From a virus, in the IMG/VR virus record IMGVR_UViG_3300010885_031189, positions 1 to 64,000 of that record: DNA of 64,000 nucleotides; one strand, given 5' to 3'. Positions 5,831-60,792 of this stretch are shown piece by piece (the stretch's first letter is position 1; every line of letters begins with the position of its first letter). Position numbers and translations under genes: made by a program. The notes below the pieces were generated by a model. That model was not told the DNA's origin. It saw only the letters and a list, made by a program, of their open reading frames with translations, and did no database searches.

Positions 5831-6091
5831 ATGACAGCACGAATGTTTAGTGGCGATCAAAAAATCCGTCTCGTTCAAATCATTAATGAAGGTATCAATG
5901 TTCTCCAGGAAGTTGAAGACTTGACTGCCGGACTTAATGAAACCATTAAGGCTATCGCTGAGGAAATGGAAATCAAACCAAGTATCCTGAAGAAAGCAAT
6001 CAAAATTGCATCCAAGAGTACTCTAGGTGAAACTAATCGTGATAACGAGGAATTGAACACCATCTTGGAAACTGTTGGCCGAACTCTTTAA
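5831..6091 (+). CDS. dsbA: DsbA-like double-stranded DNA-binding protein
   Basis: An 86-residue protein with an AAAGGA ribosome site before the ATG. It is wholly helical and charged: an N-terminal helix (KIRLVQIINEGINVLQEV), then EEMEIKPSILKKAIKIA and an acidic C-terminal helix. T4 DsbA is 89 residues, binds double-stranded DNA at late promoters and has a similar arrangement. I assign it to this family from size and general sequence likeness, without an alignment. It heads the operon with DNA polymerase, whose coding sequence follows closely. Another small helical DNA-binding protein cannot be excluded. Confidence 0.5.
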   Translation: MTARMFSGDQKIRLVQIINEGINVLQEVEDLTAGLNETIKAIAEEMEIKPSILKKAIKIASKSTLGETNRDNEELNTILETVGRTL

Positions 6092-6102
6092 GGAGCAATA
6101 GT

Positions 6103-8814
6103 ATCAGCTACATTGATTGTATTTTTGATAAAGATAAGGATGCTATACAGGTAGTCGAACGGGATAAACAAGGCAAGCGAGTCTTTACTCAGTATCCCGT
6201 GAACTATACACTGTATTTTCCTGATCGTAAAGGTAAACACCGAACTATCTATGGTACTACTGTTAGTAAATTCACAACTAAAAGTCGGACTGAATTTGAG
6301 AAAGAACGCAGAATTCATTCTGGCAAAACACTCTTTGAAAGTGATATCAATCCTATCTTTAGGTGTCTAAGTGAAAACTATTTAGGGGTAGATGCTCCTA
6401 AGTTACATACTTGCTTCCTTGACATTGAAACTGACTTCTCTCAAGAAAAGGGATTCTCTCCGGCCAGCGAAGCATTTAATTCAGTCACTGCCATCTCAAT
6501 GTACTTGGATTGGCTAGATCAACTAGTCACCCTAGTAATTGCACCATCACATATGAGTCCCGAAACTGCACAAGAAATTGTTGATCAGTTTGGTAATTCA
6601 ATCCTATTCACTAATGAAAAGGATATGTTTGATGCATTTTTTGCATTGATTGAGGATGCTGATGTACTAACTGGATGGAACTCTGAAGGATACGATATTC
6701 CATATATGGTGAATCGTGTCACTAGGGTAATGAGTAAAGATGATACTCGCAGATTTTGTTTGTTAGGGCAACTACCTAAACCAAGAACTTATGAACGATT
6801 TGGTAAAGAAGAAACGACCTATGACTTAGTTGGTAGGGTACATATGGATTACCTACAACTATATAAAAAATATAACTACGAAAGTCGGCATAGTTATAAA
6901 CTTGACACTATTGGTGAAATGGAAGTAGGAGAGAACAAGACTGCGTATGAAGGAACTCTTGATCAATTGTATAACAAGGACTTCAACAAGTTCATTGAAT
7001 ACAATCGTCAGGATACAATGCTATTGGTAAAGATTCACAATAAACTACAATTCCTGGAACTTGCTAACCAACTTGCACATGAAAATACAGTATTGTTACC
7101 TACCGTTATGGGGTCGGTGGCAATGATTGAAATGGCGATCATGAATGAATCTCATGCTCGCGGTATGGTAGTTCCAGATAAAAAACGAAAGGGTAAAAAT
7201 GATAATGAACAACAAGCAGCAGGTGCCTATGTTGCTACTCCCAAAAGGGGCATCCATGAATGGGTCGGTGCGACGGACATTAACTCACTCTACCCCTCAG
7301 CTATCCGTGCTCTTAACTTGGCCCCGGAAACCATTGTTGCCCAGGTCAGACAAAATTTAACTGATAAGTACATGCTTGAAAAAGGCATGAAACTTGCCAG
7401 AGAAAAAGCTAGACATAAAGAAGGTGATGATGATGTCACTGGTAGTGTTCTTTGGGAAGGACTTTTTGGTAGTTTAGAATACACTGCAGTAATGAATCAG
7501 GATAGAGGAACAATCCTCACCGTTGATTTTGAGGACGGTAGATCAGTTGAAATGAGTGCTGCTGAAGTTTGGAAGATGGTATTTAATAGTAACAATCCAT
7601 ATATCATTAGTGCGAATGGTACAATATTTACCCACTCACATGAAGGTGTAATTCCAGGGTTATTAACCAAGTGGTATTCTGATAGAAAGATCATGCAGAA
7701 GAAGATGAAAGAGTCTACTACTACTGAAGATAGAGATTTTTGGGATAAACGTCAACTTGTCAGAAAAATTCTATTGAATAGTGCATATGGGGCAATTTTG
7801 AATGAGCACTGTAGATTTTATGATAAACGAATCGGTCAAAGTGTAACTCTGAGTGGTAGGCAAATTGTTCGTCATATGATGAGTAACATCAATGAGTGCG
7901 TCACTGGTGAATATCAACATGATGGTGCTGCTATCGTATATGGTGATACTGACTCATGTATTTTCTCAGCATGGCCTATGGTAAAAGATGAAGTTGCGGC
8001 TGGTAAGATGGAATGGAATAAAGAAATTGCGATTGGATTGTATGATTCATTAGCAGATCAGGTCAACATTGGATTTCCTGCATTTATGGAACAAGCATTT
8101 CATTGTCCACGAAAGAATGGTGAAATTATCAAAGCCGGTCGGGAATATGTGGGTGATCGTGGTATCTTTATTACTAAAAAACGCTATGCTATTAATATCT
8201 ATGATAAAGAAGGAAAGCGTCAGGATAAAGATGGAAAGACTGGATCAATCAAAGCAATGGGTCTTGATTTGAAAAGGGCAGATACGCCTAAATATATTCA
8301 AGAGTTCCTATTAAATGTATTAACTATGGTACTTGCTGGTAAAGGACGTGAAGAGGTAATTGAAACTATCAAAACTTTCAAATTAATATTAGAAAAACAA
8401 CCAAGTTGGAGTAAAGGTAGTCCTAAATCAGTAAACAATCTTACCATGTATGGAGACAAGGAAGCACATAGTAAGACTGGTAGAGCAAATATGCCAGGGC
8501 ATGTTAGAGCAGCATTAAATTGGAATTTTTTACGAAAGATGAATGGTGATAACTACAGTCAAAAGATTGTTGATGGAATGAAAATTGTTATTTGTAAATT
8601 AAAATCTAACCCATTGGGGTTTACTTCAGTTGCATATCCCACTGATGAACTAAGATTACCCACATGGTTCTGTGACTTACCATTTGACGATAAATTAATG
8701 GAAGCTACCTTAGTAGATGACAAGATAGACAATTTATTAGGTGTATTAAACTGGAATGTGTTGTCGGATACTAATATCAATACTACCATTGGTAATTTGT
8801 TTAGTTTCTCATGA
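6103..8814 (+). CDS. 43: Family B DNA polymerase (T4 gp43 type)
   Basis: Replicative polymerase with proofreading exonuclease. Exonuclease motifs are FLDIETD, GWNSEGYDIPY and YNRQDTM; polymerase motifs are A DINSLYPSAI, B KILLNSAYGAIL and C YGDTDS, followed by KKRYA. The C-terminus ends IGNLFSFS, like the clamp-binding tail of gp43. The first conventional start is a GTG at 6199, but the frame is open back into the upstream gene. A strong TAAGGAG (6089-6095) sits seven bases before an in-frame ATC at 6103. Starting there gives 903 residues (T4: 898) and restores the N-terminal strands. I therefore place the start at AUC, which is unusual. The clamp gene follows. Confidence 0.93.
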   Translation: MSYIDCIFDKDKDAIQVVERDKQGKRVFTQYPVNYTLYFPDRKGKHRTIYGTTVSKFTTKSRTEFEKERRIHSGKTLFESDINPIFRCLSENYLGVDAPKLHTCFLDIETDFSQEKGFSPASEAFNSVTAISMYLDWLDQLVTLVIAPSHMSPETAQEIVDQFGNSILFTNEKDMFDAFFALIEDADVLTGWNSEGYDIPYMVNRVTRVMSKDDTRRFCLLGQLPKPRTYERFGKEETTYDLVGRVHMDYLQLYKKYNYESRHSYKLDTIGEMEVGENKTAYEGTLDQLYNKDFNKFIEYNRQDTMLLVKIHNKLQFLELANQLAHENTVLLPTVMGSVAMIEMAIMNESHARGMVVPDKKRKGKNDNEQQAAGAYVATPKRGIHEWVGATDINSLYPSAIRALNLAPETIVAQVRQNLTDKYMLEKGMKLAREKARHKEGDDDVTGSVLWEGLFGSLEYTAVMNQDRGTILTVDFEDGRSVEMSAAEVWKMVFNSNNPYIISANGTIFTHSHEGVIPGLLTKWYSDRKIMQKKMKESTTTEDRDFWDKRQLVRKILLNSAYGAILNEHCRFYDKRIGQSVTLSGRQIVRHMMSNINECVTGEYQHDGAAIVYGDTDSCIFSAWPMVKDEVAAGKMEWNKEIAIGLYDSLADQVNIGFPAFMEQAFHCPRKNGEIIKAGREYVGDRGIFITKKRYAINIYDKEGKRQDKDGKTGSIKAMGLDLKRADTPKYIQEFLLNVLTMVLAGKGREEVIETIKTFKLILEKQPSWSKGSPKSVNNLTMYGDKEAHSKTGRANMPGHVRAALNWNFLRKMNGDNYSQKIVDGMKIVICKLKSNPLGFTSVAYPTDELRLPTWFCDLPFDDKLMEATLVDDKIDNLLGVLNWNVLSDTNINTTIGNLFSFS

Positions 8815-8884: not shown

Positions 8885-9610
8885 ATGAAAAGTATCTTAC
8901 AAAACATTATCGCATATACCCATAATCTAGGATTTGTTAATCTAGTAAAAATAACAGGAACTGAAGATTCACTTATCCTATCTGCAAAAGCAGAAGATAG
9001 TAGTATACTTGTCACTGGTACGTTTAATGACCCATGTGCCGAGATAATGGGTGTTTTTGGTATGCCTAATTTATCGAAACTAAAGACGATCTTATCATTT
9101 GATGATTATGATGCAGATGCAAAGATTGAAATTATTAGGAAAGCTAGTGACAATAATCCTGAAAAAATTCACTTTGAAACAAAGGGTGGTGATTTCGTCA
9201 ATGATTATAGGCTTATGGCAACGAACTTTGTTGAAGAATTAATCAAGCCATTCCAATACAAAGGAAAAGGATGGGATGTTACATGTGAGCCTACTGCAGC
9301 TAGTATATTACGTCTAAAGAAACAAGCTCAAGCTAATAGTGAAGAAACTACTTTTAAAATTAAAGCAGAGGATAATAATCTAATGTTTTATTTTGGTGAT
9401 GCAGCAACTCATAGTGGATATTTTGTATTCGCAACTAATGTTGAGGGAACACTAACTAGGGATTGGCAATGGCCCATTAATCAAGTAATAAGTATCCTAA
9501 GTTTACCTGGTGACAAACTATTCAGGATCAATGATCAAGGTGCAGTAGAAATTGTTATTGATAGTGGACTCGCTGTCTATAGTTATTTTATCCCAGCACT
9601 AACTAAGTGA
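8885..9610 (+). CDS. 45: DNA polymerase sliding clamp (T4 gp45 type)
   Basis: A 241-residue protein preceded by AAAGGAAA. It has the repeated beta-alpha-beta pattern of processivity clamps, with the segments VFGMPNLSKLKTILSF and DFVNDYRLMATNFVEELIK typical of gp45 homologues in T4-like marine phages (T4 gp45 is 228 residues). As a trimer it would encircle DNA and tether gp43. In T4 it also activates late transcription through gp55 and gp33. The gene has its own promoter and is followed by the transglycosylase-like gene with a 4-base overlap, implying translational coupling. Confidence 0.88.
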   Translation: MKSILQNIIAYTHNLGFVNLVKITGTEDSLILSAKAEDSSILVTGTFNDPCAEIMGVFGMPNLSKLKTILSFDDYDADAKIEIIRKASDNNPEKIHFETKGGDFVNDYRLMATNFVEELIKPFQYKGKGWDVTCEPTAASILRLKKQAQANSEETTFKIKAEDNNLMFYFGDAATHSGYFVFATNVEGTLTRDWQWPINQVISILSLPGDKLFRINDQGAVEIVIDSGLAVYSYFIPALTK

Positions 9611-11079
9611 GTAACAGAGCAATGGAACGAGTGAATTTATCTGCACAACAACAATCTGATTGGGCATTGTTCTTACCCGCCATTAGCTCTTTTTACATTG
9701 CTGGCCTAGGCAAACAAATAAAGGGCGAACAATATTTTCCACAAGCCAGGATACCACAAGGTATTCCTGATCTTGAATCACTAAACTTCTTGAACAGTAC
9801 CAAAGGATTGTTTACTTATAAGTGGGGTCTGTATAGTGCAGGACATGCCAATATTGATCCCACTGATCCTGATAGTAGTGAAACTATTATCCGTGAAAGA
9901 GAAGCTGGAACTTTTATGTTAGGTGATAGTGGTGGGTTTCAGATTATGAAAGGACAATGGCCTGGTGATTGGAAAGATCCGTCATGTCCAAAAGCAATGA
10001 AGAAGCGTAAAGCTGTTCTTAAATGGATGGATACTTATATGGATTACGGCATGGTACTTGACGTACCTAGTCAAACCATTCGTAATCAACATTTGTATGA
10101 TAAACACGGTATCAAAACAATTGGTGATGCTGTTACTGCTACTCATATCAATAATGAATATTTCATTAATAACCGTAACGGCGAATGTAAATTTTTGAAT
10201 GTATTGCAGGGGCTTACTCATACACAAAGTGATGAATGGTATGCTGAAATGAAGGATTATTGTGATCCCATTAAGTATCCAGGGAAACACTTTAATGGTT
10301 GGGCGATGGGTGGTCAAAATAAAATTGACATCCATTTGTTTCTTAAACGATTAGTAAATATCATTCATGATGGATTGCTAGTACAGGGTAAGCATGATTG
10401 GATTCATTGCCTTGGTACAAGTATTCTAGAATATGCTGTTATCTTTAGTGATGTTCAACGAGCGATTCGCAAATACCACAATCCAGATGTTACTATCAGT
10501 TTTGATTGTGCTACTCCTTTCTTTGCTGTATCTAAAGGATTGATATACAATACTACTTTGATGGAACATAATAAAAAGTGGACATATACTGAAGAAAAGA
10601 CTGCTGAAAATAAGAAATATGCAACAGACCATCGTAAGTTTAAGGATGCTGTATTGACTGATGCTATTCATAAGGTATTTCATGATAGTCCAATTACTGA
10701 TAAGCTATTGATAAGTGATGTATGTTATCGTGGTGTAGGGTTCCTTGGTCAACATGGTAAAGAAACCAAAACAAGTTGGGATACATTGTCATACACTTTA
10801 ATTCAGGCACATAATGTATACAAACATATGTTGTCTGTGCAAGATGCTAATCGTAGATATGATAGTGGTATTATTCCTAAGATGTTAATAGATGGATCAT
10901 TTGACAATGTAAATTGTGCTGAATTGATAGATGAAATCTTCTCTATTAAGGACAGACAGAAAAGTTTAGACTTGGTTGATCGTCATAGTAGGTATTGGAT
11001 GCAAGTAAAAAGTGGACAAGGCTATAGCGGTAAAAAAGCAATGAACTCACTTACTATGTTTAATGCATTATTTGTATAA
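9607..11079 (+). CDS. tRNA-guanine-transglycosylase-like protein, candidate DpdA
   Basis: A 490-residue protein with the TGT active-site pattern in order: GDSGGFQ (Asp107), LDVPSQ (Asp152), NVLQG (Gln201), WAMGG (Gly235-236), HCLGT (267-271), and FDCATP (Asp300) matching the nucleophile segment FDCVxP of TGT enzymes. A late HNVYKHM resembles the HNL segment, but the usual CxCxxC zinc site is not seen. Phage TGT-like proteins of the DpdA group insert 7-deazaguanines into DNA. That role fits here because folE, queD and queE lie 5-8 kb downstream. The GTG start overlaps the clamp stop; an ATG at 9622 is an alternative. Exchange in tRNA remains possible. Confidence 0.72.
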   Translation: MSNRAMERVNLSAQQQSDWALFLPAISSFYIAGLGKQIKGEQYFPQARIPQGIPDLESLNFLNSTKGLFTYKWGLYSAGHANIDPTDPDSSETIIREREAGTFMLGDSGGFQIMKGQWPGDWKDPSCPKAMKKRKAVLKWMDTYMDYGMVLDVPSQTIRNQHLYDKHGIKTIGDAVTATHINNEYFINNRNGECKFLNVLQGLTHTQSDEWYAEMKDYCDPIKYPGKHFNGWAMGGQNKIDIHLFLKRLVNIIHDGLLVQGKHDWIHCLGTSILEYAVIFSDVQRAIRKYHNPDVTISFDCATPFFAVSKGLIYNTTLMEHNKKWTYTEEKTAENKKYATDHRKFKDAVLTDAIHKVFHDSPITDKLLISDVCYRGVGFLGQHGKETKTSWDTLSYTLIQAHNVYKHMLSVQDANRRYDSGIIPKMLIDGSFDNVNCAELIDEIFSIKDRQKSLDLVDRHSRYWMQVKSGQGYSGKKAMNSLTMFNALFV

Positions 11080-25029: not shown

Positions 25030-26130
25030 ATGGCTATTGTTACTGAAAATCGCACTGTCACTACTACTGAAGCTCGTCGCTCATTGCTGCGTTGTTTCGC
25101 AAAGCAACGCCCAGTATTTCTCTGGGGTCCTCCTGGAATTGGCAAGTCAGATTTGGTATCTGGCATTGCCAATGAGCTTGGCGCAGTCATGATTGACTTG
25201 CGGCTGAGCCAAATGGACCCCACTGACATTCGCGGGATTCCATTCTATAATAAAGAAATCAACAAGATGGATTGGGCAGCACCAATTGAATTGCCTGATG
25301 AAGAATTCGCATCAAAGTATCCATTGGTTGTTTTGTTTCTTGATGAATTGAATGCGGCTCCTCCAGCAGTTCAAGCTGCCGCATATCAGCTTATCCTGAA
25401 TCGTGCAGTTGGCAAGTATCGTATGCCCGACAATGTTGTTCTGGTTGCGGCTGGCAATCGTGAAAGTGACAAGGGTGTTACTTTCCGCATGCCTAGTCCA
25501 TTGGCAAATCGGTTTGTCCACTTGGAAGTTCGTGCTGACTTTCCAAGTTGGGAGCATTGGGCTGTGCAAAACAAAATCCACAAGGATGTGGTTGGTTACT
25601 TGGCTTTTGCTAAGCAGGACCTGTTTGACTTTGATCCACGATCTAGCTCTAGGTCCTTCGCTACTCCACGTTCTTGGGCATTCGTGAGTGAATTGCTTGA
25701 TGACAATGACAATGATAGCAGCACTACTGATCTGGTAGCAGGTACAGTTGGTGAGGGCATGGCAGTCAAGTTTATGGCGCATCGGAAGATTTCTGGTCAG
25801 ATGCCCAATGCTACTGATATTCTGGCAGGCCGTGTCACGGAATTGAAGATCAAAGAAATTTCTGCGATGTACTCGCTAACTGTTTCTTTGTGCTACGAAT
25901 TGAAAGAGGCTTACGAAAAGTCTGTTGGTAGCAAGCAAGAAAAGTTTAACGAAATGGCAGATTACTTCTTCCGTTTCATGATGGATAACTTCACAACTGA
26001 ATTGGTTGTGATGGGAGCCAGGGTCGCTATCACAACATATGGCATCCCATTCGTTCCAAACAAGCTGAAGAATTTTGATGAATTCCATAAGCGTTTTGGA
26101 AAGTATGTTGTTGCTGCATCAAGCAAGTAA
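25030..26130 (+). CDS. MoxR-type AAA+ ATPase
   Basis: A 366-residue AAA+ protein after AAGGA. Walker A is LWGPPGIGKSDLV (about 31-43), Walker B is VVLFLDELNAAPP (about 100-112), sensor 1 lies in VVLVAAGNRESD, and the arginine-finger region is RMPSPLANRFVHLEV. The order and the AGN(R) segment match the MoxR/RavA branch, chaperone-like ATPases that work with VWA-domain partners. The very next gene encodes such a partner, so the two probably act as a remodelling pair. It has its own promoter and a strong terminator between it and the partner. Confidence 0.87.
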   Translation: MAIVTENRTVTTTEARRSLLRCFAKQRPVFLWGPPGIGKSDLVSGIANELGAVMIDLRLSQMDPTDIRGIPFYNKEINKMDWAAPIELPDEEFASKYPLVVLFLDELNAAPPAVQAAAYQLILNRAVGKYRMPDNVVLVAAGNRESDKGVTFRMPSPLANRFVHLEVRADFPSWEHWAVQNKIHKDVVGYLAFAKQDLFDFDPRSSSRSFATPRSWAFVSELLDDNDNDSSTTDLVAGTVGEGMAVKFMAHRKISGQMPNATDILAGRVTELKIKEISAMYSLTVSLCYELKEAYEKSVGSKQEKFNEMADYFFRFMMDNFTTELVVMGARVAITTYGIPFVPNKLKNFDEFHKRFGKYVVAASSK

Positions 26131-26136
26131 AATACA

Positions 26137-26156
26137 GGGGCTACGGCCCCTTTTTT
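26137..26156 (+). terminator. Rho-independent terminator with UACG loop
   Basis: GGGGC (26137-26141), loop TACG, GCCCC (26146-26150), T6. The C(UACG)G closing loop is the especially stable UNCG type. It lies six bases after the MoxR stop. Confidence 0.92.
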
Positions 26157-26188
26157 GTTGCATTTTTGTAACAACTTGCTTGGTGTTT

Positions 26189-26218
26189 TTGAACATCTAT
26201 GCTATAATGATTACTTAC
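26189..26218 (+). promoter_or_regulatory. Probable sigma-70 promoter of VWA gene
   Basis: TATAAT (26213-26218) is perfect; the -35 box is weaker, TTGAAC (26189-26194) with an 18-bp spacer. The expected start is about 26225, giving a leader of only about eight bases. Confidence 0.7.
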
Positions 26219-26232
26219 AAACAGGAACTAGT

Positions 26233-27495
26233 ATGACAACTACAATTACTGACAAAGAGAAATCTGTCACTATCACCAATCCAAAGATTGATGCATTGGC
26301 CCGTGAAAAACTGGTTACAGCCCGAGTTGGTCTTTTGCTCAAAGCTAGTTTTTTTGGTAATTTGGCAACACGCTTGAAATTGCTTAATGCTGATGATTGG
26401 TGTGCTACTGCAGCAACTGATGGTCGCCATTTCTATTACAATTCTGAATTTATTAATTCACTCAGCCTAACAGAATGTGAATTTCTTTTTGGGCATGAAG
26501 TTTTGCATGTAGTGTATGATCATATTGGACGGCGCGAAGATCGTAATCCTATACTTAGTAACATTGCTGCTGACTATTGTGTCAACCAGGACCTGATTGA
26601 TTACAACATTGGTCAGCGCATTACCAAAGTTAAGATTCTGTATGATCGTAAATACAAAGGCATGAGTTTTGAAGAAGTGTATGATGATTTGTATAAGAAT
26701 GCAACTAAGATCAACATGCAGGATCTGTTTGATCAAATCCTTGATGAGCATATTGGTGGTGATGCTGATGGTGGTGACGGAGTGGGTGAGGGTGATGGAC
26801 CAGGATCTGCAAAGAAGAAAAAGCCTACGCTATCTCAAGAGCAACTGAAAGAGATTAGGGATGAGATCAAAGAAGCAGTACTTCAAGCTGCACAGGCAAG
26901 TGGTGCTTGCAATCTCCCGGCTGGTGTTCAGCGTTTGATTTCAGAAATGACTGAAAGCATCATTAACTGGCGTGAGTTGTTGCTTCAACAAATTCAAAGT
27001 ACTATCAAGCAAGATTATAGTTGGATGCGTACTAGTCGGCGAAGCTGGCATATGGATGCTGTTATGCCTGGAATGATTCCAGGGGATACAGTTGATGTTT
27101 GTATTGCAATTGATACATCAGGGTCTATTAGTGAAAAAGAGCTAAAGATTTTCTTGAGTGAAATCAAGGGTATCATGGAAAGCTACACTGATTATAAGAT
27201 TCATCTGTGGTGTTTTGACACGGCCGTACACAATCCGCAAGTGTTCAATCAAGAGACTATGCATGACATTCTGGCATATGAACCAAAGGGTGGTGGTGGA
27301 ACTGATTTTGATGCCAATTGGACTTTCATGAAAGACAATCAGATTGAACCTAAGAAATTGATTGTGTTTACTGATATGTGTCCATTTGGAAGTTGGGGTG
27401 ATCCTGACTACTGTGATACAGTTTGGATTTCTGTAATGTCTGATACTATTGCACCATTTGGAATCACTGCCAAGTACGAAGACTCCCTGAAATAA
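26233..27495 (+). CDS. VWA-domain protein with metallopeptidase-like motif
   Basis: A 420-residue protein; the ATG at 26233 is used because a longer reading would include the promoter. The N-terminal half has FGHEVLHVVYDHIGR (HExxH at 88-92 and another His at 97), the zinc motif of the putative metallopeptidase domain found in DUF2201-type proteins. A low-complexity Gly/Asp linker and a helical segment follow. The C-terminal half is a VWA domain with the MIDAS residues IDTSGS (about 293-298), GGGGTDF and FTDM. It probably partners the MoxR ATPase. Whether it cuts proteins is unknown. Confidence 0.85.
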   Translation: MTTTITDKEKSVTITNPKIDALAREKLVTARVGLLLKASFFGNLATRLKLLNADDWCATAATDGRHFYYNSEFINSLSLTECEFLFGHEVLHVVYDHIGRREDRNPILSNIAADYCVNQDLIDYNIGQRITKVKILYDRKYKGMSFEEVYDDLYKNATKINMQDLFDQILDEHIGGDADGGDGVGEGDGPGSAKKKKPTLSQEQLKEIRDEIKEAVLQAAQASGACNLPAGVQRLISEMTESIINWRELLLQQIQSTIKQDYSWMRTSRRSWHMDAVMPGMIPGDTVDVCIAIDTSGSISEKELKIFLSEIKGIMESYTDYKIHLWCFDTAVHNPQVFNQETMHDILAYEPKGGGGTDFDANWTFMKDNQIEPKKLIVFTDMCPFGSWGDPDYCDTVWISVMSDTIAPFGITAKYEDSLK

Positions 27496-58187: not shown

Positions 58188-59081
58188 GTGAAATCAAATT
58201 ATCTAAATAATAAAGACATACTAAAAGAAATTCATAGAAGCAAATCTACTTACTGCTCCTTTATATCAAAAGACTTAGCCGACTATGATATTATTATCCA
58301 TTCAATTAATAACATCACTCAAGAAACAGTTGATCAGGCTAGAATTAATAGGGCAGATCGGTTATCTAGGCTAGCACTTGATGCCGCAAATGCATTAGGT
58401 GAAAAAAGAAAATTAGAGGAATTTGCAATCGATCCAGATACTGTTCTATCCACTGATGTAGTAATACGATTGATGACTTGGGATCATGTCCCAATTGATG
58501 ATATCAAAACTAAAAAAGCTGAGGCTGCTCAGGCTGAACTTGAAGAAAATGAACCAGTTCATACTGAATATGATGATGATGATGAAGTAGAAACAAAACT
58601 GTCTCCCTCAACTACTAGGTATGTAAAATGTAACTTCCCACCATTTCAACATTTTAAAGTTGATACCACTAATACTCCAATTTGTGTAGGCAAAAGCCAT
58701 TGGACAGGTGATCTAGTCACCGGTAGTTGGAGTCGTGATCACGGTGCTATGACAAAAACATTAGCCATAATGTTCATGAAACTATGTGAACGATATGCCA
58801 CTCGTAGTAATTGGCGCGGGTATACTTATAATGATGAAATGCGTAGTCAGGCCCTATTACAATTAAGCCAAATCGGATTGCAATTTGATGAGAGTAAATC
58901 AGCGAATCCTTTTGCATACTACACTGCTGCAGTGACCAATTCTTTCACTAGAGTGCTAAATATAGAGAAGCGTAATCAAAATTTGCGTGATGATATATTA
59001 GAAATGAACAACGTGAACCCATCTTATACGAGACAGGGTATGAGTTCAGGAATGCACTATGGTGACGGAGATCATGATTGA
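58188..59081 (+). CDS. 55: Late-transcription sigma factor gp55
   Basis: A 297-residue protein after AGGGAGA with a GTG start. It opens with YLNNKDILKEI, the gp55 N-terminal motif, and after an insertion resumes with MTKTLAIMFMKLCERYATRSNWRGYTYNDEMRSQALLQL, the sigma region 2 equivalent that reads the late -10 element, then AYYTAAVTNSFTRVLNIEKR. T4 gp55 has 185 residues; the extra 110 or so between these parts (about 30-170) is acidic in the middle and contains YVKCNFPPFQHFKV. The C-terminus (GMHYGDGDHD) lacks the hydrophobic clamp-binding tail of T4 gp55. Confidence 0.85.
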   Translation: MKSNYLNNKDILKEIHRSKSTYCSFISKDLADYDIIIHSINNITQETVDQARINRADRLSRLALDAANALGEKRKLEEFAIDPDTVLSTDVVIRLMTWDHVPIDDIKTKKAEAAQAELEENEPVHTEYDDDDEVETKLSPSTTRYVKCNFPPFQHFKVDTTNTPICVGKSHWTGDLVTGSWSRDHGAMTKTLAIMFMKLCERYATRSNWRGYTYNDEMRSQALLQLSQIGLQFDESKSANPFAYYTAAVTNSFTRVLNIEKRNQNLRDDILEMNNVNPSYTRQGMSSGMHYGDGDHD

Positions 59082-60792
59082 CGAAATAGCTAGACTACAA
59101 AAACTAAAGCGTCTAACAATGGACTTGTTATTCAAGTCTGTTGTTTGGAATAAGCTTTCATTATACAAAAGTGAATACATAACTGATCCTCGTCAGATAT
59201 TGTATCATGCTTCTATTGATTCATTGATTGTCCCTACTTGTTTTTGTGGGGGCTCATTAAAATGGCACCCTGACAAAAGAATGTATAGATCATTTTGTTC
59301 AACGAAATGCACTGCCATTGGAACTATAGAAAAATCTAGAGTTACTAATTTAGAAAAATATGGCAGTCACTATACACAAACCTCTGAATACAAAGATAAA
59401 GTAAAACAAACCTCTTTGAATAAATTTGGCGTTGACCATTATAGTAAAAGTAGTGAGTTTTCTCAACGAATAAAAGAAACCAATTTAGCTACTTATGGGG
59501 TTGAACATCCATCCCAAAATATAGAAATACAGAAAAAGATAGTAAAAAAGTTTATTGAAAACTACGGTGAAACTAATCCAATGTTAGTTCAATCTGTAAA
59601 AGATAAAATTGAAAAAACAAATATAGATCGGTATGGTTTCAAAAATGCTGCTCAAAATACACAGGTTCAACTAAAGACAGCAGATACTAATCGTAAGAAA
59701 TATGGTGTAGGTAATGCCATGCAAAATAATACAATTTCTAATAAAGCCATCTTAACTAGAAAACAGAATTACTATAGTGAAGATGTATTAGCTAAATTAT
59801 CCAATCCTACTTGGCTTTCTGAACAAAATGAAACAATGAGCATTGCAACTCTAGCTACTAAGTTAGAAGTAAGTTCAAGTAATCTATGTAAATATTTTCA
59901 CAAGTATGGTATTGAAATTAAACAACATAGTACTACTGAACTAGAACAAAAAATGGTAGATTATTTTGTGGGCAAAGGTATAAAGGTTGAATTGAAAAAT
60001 AGAACTCTTATATCCCCTAAAGAAATTGATCTGTACTTTCCAGATTTAAAACTAGGGATAGAAATAAATGGATTTTATTGGCATTCCGAAGAATTTCAAA
60101 AAAATAAGTTCTACCATTTGAATAAGTCCATTGCTGCAGAACAAGCAAATATAGAACTATGGCATTTCTGGGATTGGGAACTTATTGATCATTGGGATAT
60201 AATTATTAGTAAAATTGAACATAAAGCCAATCTTAGTAAAAGACTATATGCTAGAAAATTAAACATTAAACTAGTTGATGCCAAAGAAAAATTATCGTTC
60301 CTACAAAGAAATCATATTCAACAGGATTGTGCCAGTTCAGTGAATATAGGACTATATGATAATGATCAATTAGTAATGATCGCTACTTTCGGAAAAAGTA
60401 GATTCGCTAAAAAAATGGATTGGGAATTACTGCGTCTCGCAGCAGAACAAAAAACTTCAATCGTAGGTGGTGCTTCTAAATTGTTATCCGAATTCGTTAA
60501 TAATCATATGCAATCAGGAGAAAAGTTAGTAAGTTATTGTCACCGGAGATTTAGTACCGGAAATGTATATAAGAAATTACAATTTGAACTGTCACATACT
60601 ACCAGCCCTGGATATTGCTACAGTAGGCGTGGGTTACCAGCCGGATCCAGGAATAAATGGCAAAAACATAAATTAGAAAAGTTGTTACCGGTGTTTGATA
60701 CCACATTATCTGAATCTCAAAATATGCAAGCGAATGGTTATTGGAAAGTTTGGGATTGCGGACAATATGTTTTCACTTATACTAAGCCGTAG
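59059..60792 (+). CDS. Homing endonuclease, Vsr-like with DNA-binding repeats
   Basis: A 577-residue protein; the ATG at 59059 has AGGAA six bases upstream and overlaps gp55 by 23 bases. An N-terminal zinc-finger-like segment (CFCGG ... FCSTKC) is followed by six repeats of 22-25 residues (about 90-230) with the core YGVxHxxQ, likely DNA-reading units. A C-terminal nuclease domain contains KEIDLYFPDLKLGIEING, FYWHSE and NIELWHFWDWEL, as in Vsr-like EDxHD homing endonucleases. It sits between conserved genes 55 and 47, a typical intergenic homing site. Codon use looks more AT-rich than its neighbours. Confidence 0.78.
   Translation: MVTEIMIDEIARLQKLKRLTMDLLFKSVVWNKLSLYKSEYITDPRQILYHASIDSLIVPTCFCGGSLKWHPDKRMYRSFCSTKCTAIGTIEKSRVTNLEKYGSHYTQTSEYKDKVKQTSLNKFGVDHYSKSSEFSQRIKETNLATYGVEHPSQNIEIQKKIVKKFIENYGETNPMLVQSVKDKIEKTNIDRYGFKNAAQNTQVQLKTADTNRKKYGVGNAMQNNTISNKAILTRKQNYYSEDVLAKLSNPTWLSEQNETMSIATLATKLEVSSSNLCKYFHKYGIEIKQHSTTELEQKMVDYFVGKGIKVELKNRTLISPKEIDLYFPDLKLGIEINGFYWHSEEFQKNKFYHLNKSIAAEQANIELWHFWDWELIDHWDIIISKIEHKANLSKRLYARKLNIKLVDAKEKLSFLQRNHIQQDCASSVNIGLYDNDQLVMIATFGKSRFAKKMDWELLRLAAEQKTSIVGGASKLLSEFVNNHMQSGEKLVSYCHRRFSTGNVYKKLQFELSHTTSPGYCYSRRGLPAGSRNKWQKHKLEKLLPVFDTTLSESQNMQANGYWKVWDCGQYVFTYTKP

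Follow-up and report, generated by a model that had tools for sequence, protein, structure and literature searches.

Initiation at AUC, AUU or AUA (together AUH) is a textbook curiosity drawn from a handful of genes: the AUU of infC is conserved across bacteria, pcnB and the internal product of T4 gene 26 also start at AUU, and dsg of Myxococcus starts at AUC. In Escherichia coli infC, which encodes initiation factor IF3, autocontrol is lost or expression rises when AUU is replaced by AUG, to go by the titles of Butler 1987 and Brombach 1987 as cited in PMC9845219. Gene-specific, repeatedly evolved non-ATG starts have been described in lacI, cra and mlc of Enterobacteriaceae and argued to be adaptive (PMC11445065). 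For phage DNA polymerases, the closest described control is that of T4 gp43, which represses its own translation through an operator that overlaps the ribosome binding site and holds gp43 down, and some T4-related gp43s do not autoregulate (PMC3014915). Our literature search for AUH starts of phage DNA polymerases found no paper.

The window analysed here covers positions 1-64000 of an uncultured virus record that is 98,319 bases long and carries a T4 gp43-like polymerase gene whose apparent start codon is AUC, preceded by a strong Shine-Dalgarno (SD) sequence (Table 1).

Table 1. Coordinates of the polymerase locus (window positions) and of initiator-like tRNA genes in two relatives.
Feature	Position	Strand	Remarks
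dsbA-like upstream gene, 86 aa, resembles phage transcription regulator phrog_639	5831..6091	+	ATG start; control gene
Shine-Dalgarno TAAGGAG, 7-nt spacer	6089..6095	+	its TAA doubles as stop of the dsbA-like gene
AUC (ATC), very probable start codon	6103..6105	+	conserved in L001-L005, L133, L134, L171; AUH at homologous codon in about 10 further lineages
GTG, first in-frame canonical start, codon 33	6199..6201	+	no SD; GTA in L001; judged a non-start
Family B DNA polymerase (T4 gp43-like), 903 aa, read from AUC	6103..8814	+	Pfam, PHROG, fold
Phage sliding clamp relative, downstream gene, 241 aa	8885..9610	+	control gene; ATG in 160/161 loci
CAU tRNA, initiator-like	L634:522-598	-	1:72 mismatch
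CAU tRNA, initiator-like	L635:760-833	+	1:72 mismatch
CAU tRNA, initiator-like	L635:18191-18265	+	1:72 mismatch

The polymerase and its N-terminus

The polymerase matched PF03104 (exonuclease, 1.6e-21) and PF00136 (polymerase domain, 5.2e-42), both above cut-off, as well as phrog_262 (E=4.7e-200), and RB69/T4 gp43 was also recovered by sequence profile. An AlphaFold model built from 47 native sequences (pLDDT 79.7) found RB69 (4khn) as its best Foldseek match (E=2.4e-43, TM 0.67-0.70), the top PDB matches being RB69/T4 gp43. Among the neighbours, the gene at the clamp position of Sinorhizobium phage Phosso is annotated "DNA polymerase III sliding clamp beta". After the clamp comes a 490-aa protein (9607-11079), whose GTG start overlaps the clamp stop and which gave no Pfam or PHROG match; we take it to be vaguely like a tRNA-guanine transglycosylase/DpdA-type enzyme. 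Elsewhere in the window, an AAA ATPase (26155-27492, phrog_1297) adjoins a DUF2201 VWA-like/metallopeptidase-type protein with a TTG start (25030-26127), the two forming a MoxR-VWA-like pair, and a 577-aa DUF7487 protein (59059-60789) with a weak IF2_N match below cut-off is probably not an initiation factor.

An earlier note had placed TAAGGAG seven bases before an in-frame ATC at 6103, had found no ATG, GTG or TTG that would give a full N-terminus, and had compared the resulting 903 residues with the 898 of T4 gp43; re-reading the coordinates and the frame confirmed the placement and the missing canonical codon, and the 898 residues of T4 gp43 agree with its coding sequence of 2697 nt. The spacer is CAATAGT (6096-6102), the computed anti-SD pairing amounts to -8.4 kcal/mol, and the frame closes at TGA (8812-8814). 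Upstream of the ATC, 19 in-frame codons lead back to a TAA, with ATG, GTG or TTG in none of them. The site joins an AUH codon and a properly spaced SD sequence with no alternative canonical start.

The same note had proposed comparing this codon in related phages, and ATC was found likewise at the homologous codon in eight independent IMG/VR contigs from several metagenomes (L001-L005, L133, L134 and L171; polymerases 88-90% identical), where it is preceded by AAAGGAG with the identical 7-nt spacer. The AUH start is thus conserved within the nearest clade, in nine contigs including the window and in two distinct versions, and in the family at large it is recurrent and not universal; the nearest neighbour of the window, L006, has ATG at codon 2. 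L001 and the window differ in the SD region by a one-base indel, which shifts the frame relative to the dsbA-like gene and leaves the SD-to-ATC spacing unchanged. In L001 an in-frame TAA lies four codons ahead of the ATC, and the other contigs of its clade have an in-frame stop at that distance too; therefore, the N-terminus cannot reach further upstream without readthrough.

The first 32 residues themselves look like part of the protein. In the model, strands are predicted at residues 5-9, 14-20 and 26-32, so that residues 1-32 there make up the first three strands of the RB69/T4-like N-terminal domain. When 13 proteins were aligned, the ATC codon (I1) fell on the annotated Met1 of phage Phosso and of Agrobacterium phage Atu_ph07, and E19, R20 and G24 proved invariant as far away as T4 gp43. 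In codons 2-32, 12 changed codons were synonymous and 6 nonsynonymous, 15 of 19 substitutions fell at third positions, and dN was 0.084 as against 0.077 in the rest of the gene (dS was saturated); judged from these substitutions, codons 2-32 are under purifying selection. Unusual conservation of the first seven codons at the DNA level was not found, as 31% of blocks were equally conserved.

These observations also bear on the other ways of obtaining an N-terminus. A standard ORF listing reports the GTG at 6199, the first canonical in-frame start, which would remove 32 residues (as the earlier note stated, and as checked in frame). However, this codon has no SD sequence, it is replaced by GTA in the 88% identical relative L001, whose next canonical start is codon 77 and costs 76 codons, and a start there would strip the conserved strands together with all three residues common to T4; adding the selection on codons 2-32, the GTG start is ruled out, and we consider a shorter polymerase scarcely credible. 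An isolated odd start usually stems from a single-base mistake, but a sequencing or assembly error in place of ATG is ruled out by the occurrence of ATC in the independent sister-clade contigs, and AUH is found in about 10 other lineages. A fusion with the dsbA-like gene through frameshift or readthrough would have to pass the in-frame stop that many AUH relatives carry 3-8 codons upstream of the start; moreover, the polymerase frame relative to the dsbA-like gene is -1 in the window and the same frame, after TAA, in L001, and since no single recoding mechanism fits both, this was ruled out as well. The chance of an error or of such recoding is, in our estimation, negligible.

With five lines of support, namely the ATC, SD and spacing kept alike in independent contigs, the upstream stops in AUH relatives, the purifying selection on codons 2-32, the homology to Met1 and the structural need for residues 1-32, we consider it very probable that AUC 6103 is the true polymerase start.

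Recurrence and gene specificity of the start

The earlier note regarded the start as a lone oddity, which it is not: for the polymerase gene it recurs across the phage family. When 2.9 million viral contigs were scanned for the DNA pattern SD + ATH + Ser-Tyr-[IV]-Asp, polymerases starting with ATC, ATT or ATA turned up in many lineages whose identity to the window is only 53-61%, and L110/L192 was the only lineage with a canonical codon between the upstream stop and the AUH. Further scans added L536 and L581 (TCN serine), while L498 proved to be a contig already represented, and L602, an ATC relative recovered without the AGGAG requirement, has the weaker GGGAG as its SD. SD strength was compared between AUH and ATG genes, but it is unusable as evidence because most AUH genes were found via the AGGAG pattern.

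Against ascertainment bias, an unselected census was taken of loci recovered by internal protein motifs only. Its 182 distinct loci start with ATG (138), ATG at codon 2 (6), TTG (31), ATC (5), ATA (1) and ATT (1), and with GTG in none. In a second sample, conditioned on AGGAG + NTG (n=98, among the matches listed), at least 80 starts were ATG and at least 17 TTG, with no GTG or CTG. In a FastTree phylogeny of 195 polymerases, at least 13 changes of the AUH label are needed, 10 of them forced by starred branches; in a reduced version, from which fragments and first residues were dropped, the numbers are 10 and 9. AUH starts are therefore recurrent in the polymerase family as far as its sequences and tree go, with at least 9-10 changes forced by well-supported branches among 190-195 proteins. 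Some of these changes may be losses and not gains, as the ATG of L006 next to the window illustrates.

The homologous start codon is TTG in loci among L009-L080 and L199-L354. In many window-type relatives the dsbA stop shares bases with this TTG or ATG (TTGA, ATGA, TAATG), which suggests translational coupling. In L088 and L193 the polymerase match comes in two or three pieces with about 0.2-1.5 kb of intervening DNA, and these interruptions look like introns, inteins or homing-endonuclease insertions.

The neighbouring genes served as controls. In the polymerase loci the clamp starts with ATG, with a single locus unresolved, and an ATG is available to dsbA in 176 of 179 resolved loci. TTG and AUH taken together occur in 38/182 polymerase genes and 0/161 clamp genes (Fisher p=6e-12), and AUH alone in 7/182 and 0/161 (p=0.016), both values computed ignoring phylogenetic relatedness. 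Within the 98,319-base record, ATC 6103 is unique as a non-ATG/GTG/TTG opener of a long frame with an SD of at least a 5-mer and no better start; the other matches to that scan lay directly before an ATG, overlapped a minus-strand gene or fell within the polymerase frame, and no second gene of the record has an AUH or CTG start with a strong SD and no better option. Since the neighbours keep ATG and the record holds no other such start, a relaxed start rule throughout the genome or the host is unlikely. The position, conservation, recurrence and gene specificity of the start are thus established at the level of sequence comparison.

Start strength and rival explanations

The AUC would be read by ordinary fMet-tRNA, whose CAU anticodon would mispair at the third codon position, and the strong, well-spaced SD (UAAGGAG, 7 nt) would make such initiation possible. 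Work in a reconstituted system showed that IF3, EF-G and RRF discriminate against weak pairing at the third position, as in AUU/CAU, and that very little product forms (PMC10158994); for this reason AUC should be weak too. The weak start codon may then act as a built-in throttle on an enzyme required in small amounts, lowering its expression, and translation of the polymerase may become sensitive to IF3 and to initiation conditions. The gene appears to have repeatedly swapped AUG for UUG or AUH in the phage family, and the weak start may do passively what the T4 operator does. An operator-like RNA hairpin was sought at the start, and neither the window nor L001 folded beyond shuffles (z -0.04 and 0.74). 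The AUC start probably limits polymerase synthesis, much as AUU does in infC, and its regulatory role and selective reason are inferred. Such a throttle is plausible and agrees with what has been published on weak codon-anticodon pairs, and we regard a real, gene-specific weak start with a strong SD, read by fMet-tRNA and acting in this way, as likely on the evidence of the compared sequences.

The most serious competitor holds that the AUC is a start with no regulatory role, reached by near-neutral drift among AUG, UUG and AUH and tolerated through a compensating strong SD. The scatter of start codons over the tree, the presence of all three AUH codons, the frequent TTG (31/182) and the lack of a conserved operator structure all agree with it, but the clamp (ATG in 160/161) and the dsbA-like gene (176/179) do not drift. 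GTG is a more frequent alternative start among bacteria at large (PMC9845219), and as neutral drift would be expected to yield it too, its absence (0/182, and 0/98 among the matches listed in the second sample) speaks mildly against pure drift, which we consider rather unlikely. It could also be supposed that the phage contributes an initiator tRNA of its own, dedicated or altered (a GAU anticodon or a relaxed CAU initiator, for instance), which reads AUC efficiently; the start would then not be weak. Three large relatives (240-374 kb) do bear 19-33 tRNA genes, and two of them (L634 and L635) encode CAU tRNAs with the 1:72 mismatch that is a hallmark of initiators (C1xA72 or A1xA72) and with anticodon stems other than the standard GGG/CCC; phage-borne tRNAs of this kind could alter start-codon selection. 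However, the polymerase of these relatives begins with ATG, which leaves the tRNAs and the start without a direct link, the genes adjacent to the polymerase keep ATG, and no GAU tRNA had initiator features. No tRNA gene of any kind was found in the 98-kb record or in the AUH-start fragments tested, these phage genomes being incomplete. A phage IF3 was not seen either (IF3_C in 0/15 records including the 98-kb record, IF3_N in 0/5), and a search of bacterial genomes for a relative as a clue to the host found none. We judge an efficient, tRNA-assisted start to be highly improbable.

Returning to the weak start as a throttle, the fact that some 79% of relatives have ATG, and that AUH lineages are mostly sparse, does not point to a strong and uniform need for AUH. 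To speculate further, there may be recurrent selection for sub-optimal polymerase starts (UUG, AUC, AUU and AUA, never GUG or CUG) in uncultured huge phages, with the start codon, and not a protein-bound RNA operator, setting the dosage, possibly coupled to the state of IF3 in the host or to initiator-like tRNAs of the phage; we put this forward tentatively, as a possibility that we would sooner doubt than assert.

Comparison with described systems

About 10 separate acquisitions of AUH by a replication polymerase whose neighbours keep AUG make the choice of start look like evolved dosage control, and they offer a natural replicate series for testing it. In practical terms, ORF calling restricted to ATG, GTG and TTG would truncate AUH polymerases by 6-113 codons in the cases seen. 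Non-canonical starts of the infC type were already known; the wider and new result, as read from the loci compared here, is that uncultured huge phages of one family have come to AUH again and again, and specifically in the polymerase.

Like the polymerase gene, infC of E. coli is one essential gene with an AUH start (AUU), but the infC product itself senses the weak codon, whereas the polymerase is no initiation factor, and unlike in infC the start codon of the phage family varies among AUG, UUG and AUH. With gene 43 of T4 and RB69 the locus shares the gp43 family, and there the level is limited at translation initiation (PMC3014915), as we infer it to be here; T4 gene 43 starts at AUG and has a hairpin operator to which gp43 binds, whereas the window polymerase has no outstanding hairpin and its weak element would be the start codon. 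The non-ATG starts of lacI, cra and mlc are likewise gene-specific and repeated, although they are GTG or TTG and belong to transcription regulators, while those of the phages are AUH and belong to a replication enzyme. Finally, T4 gene 26, pcnB and dsg are single genes, whereas the phage polymerase has been hit repeatedly within one family.
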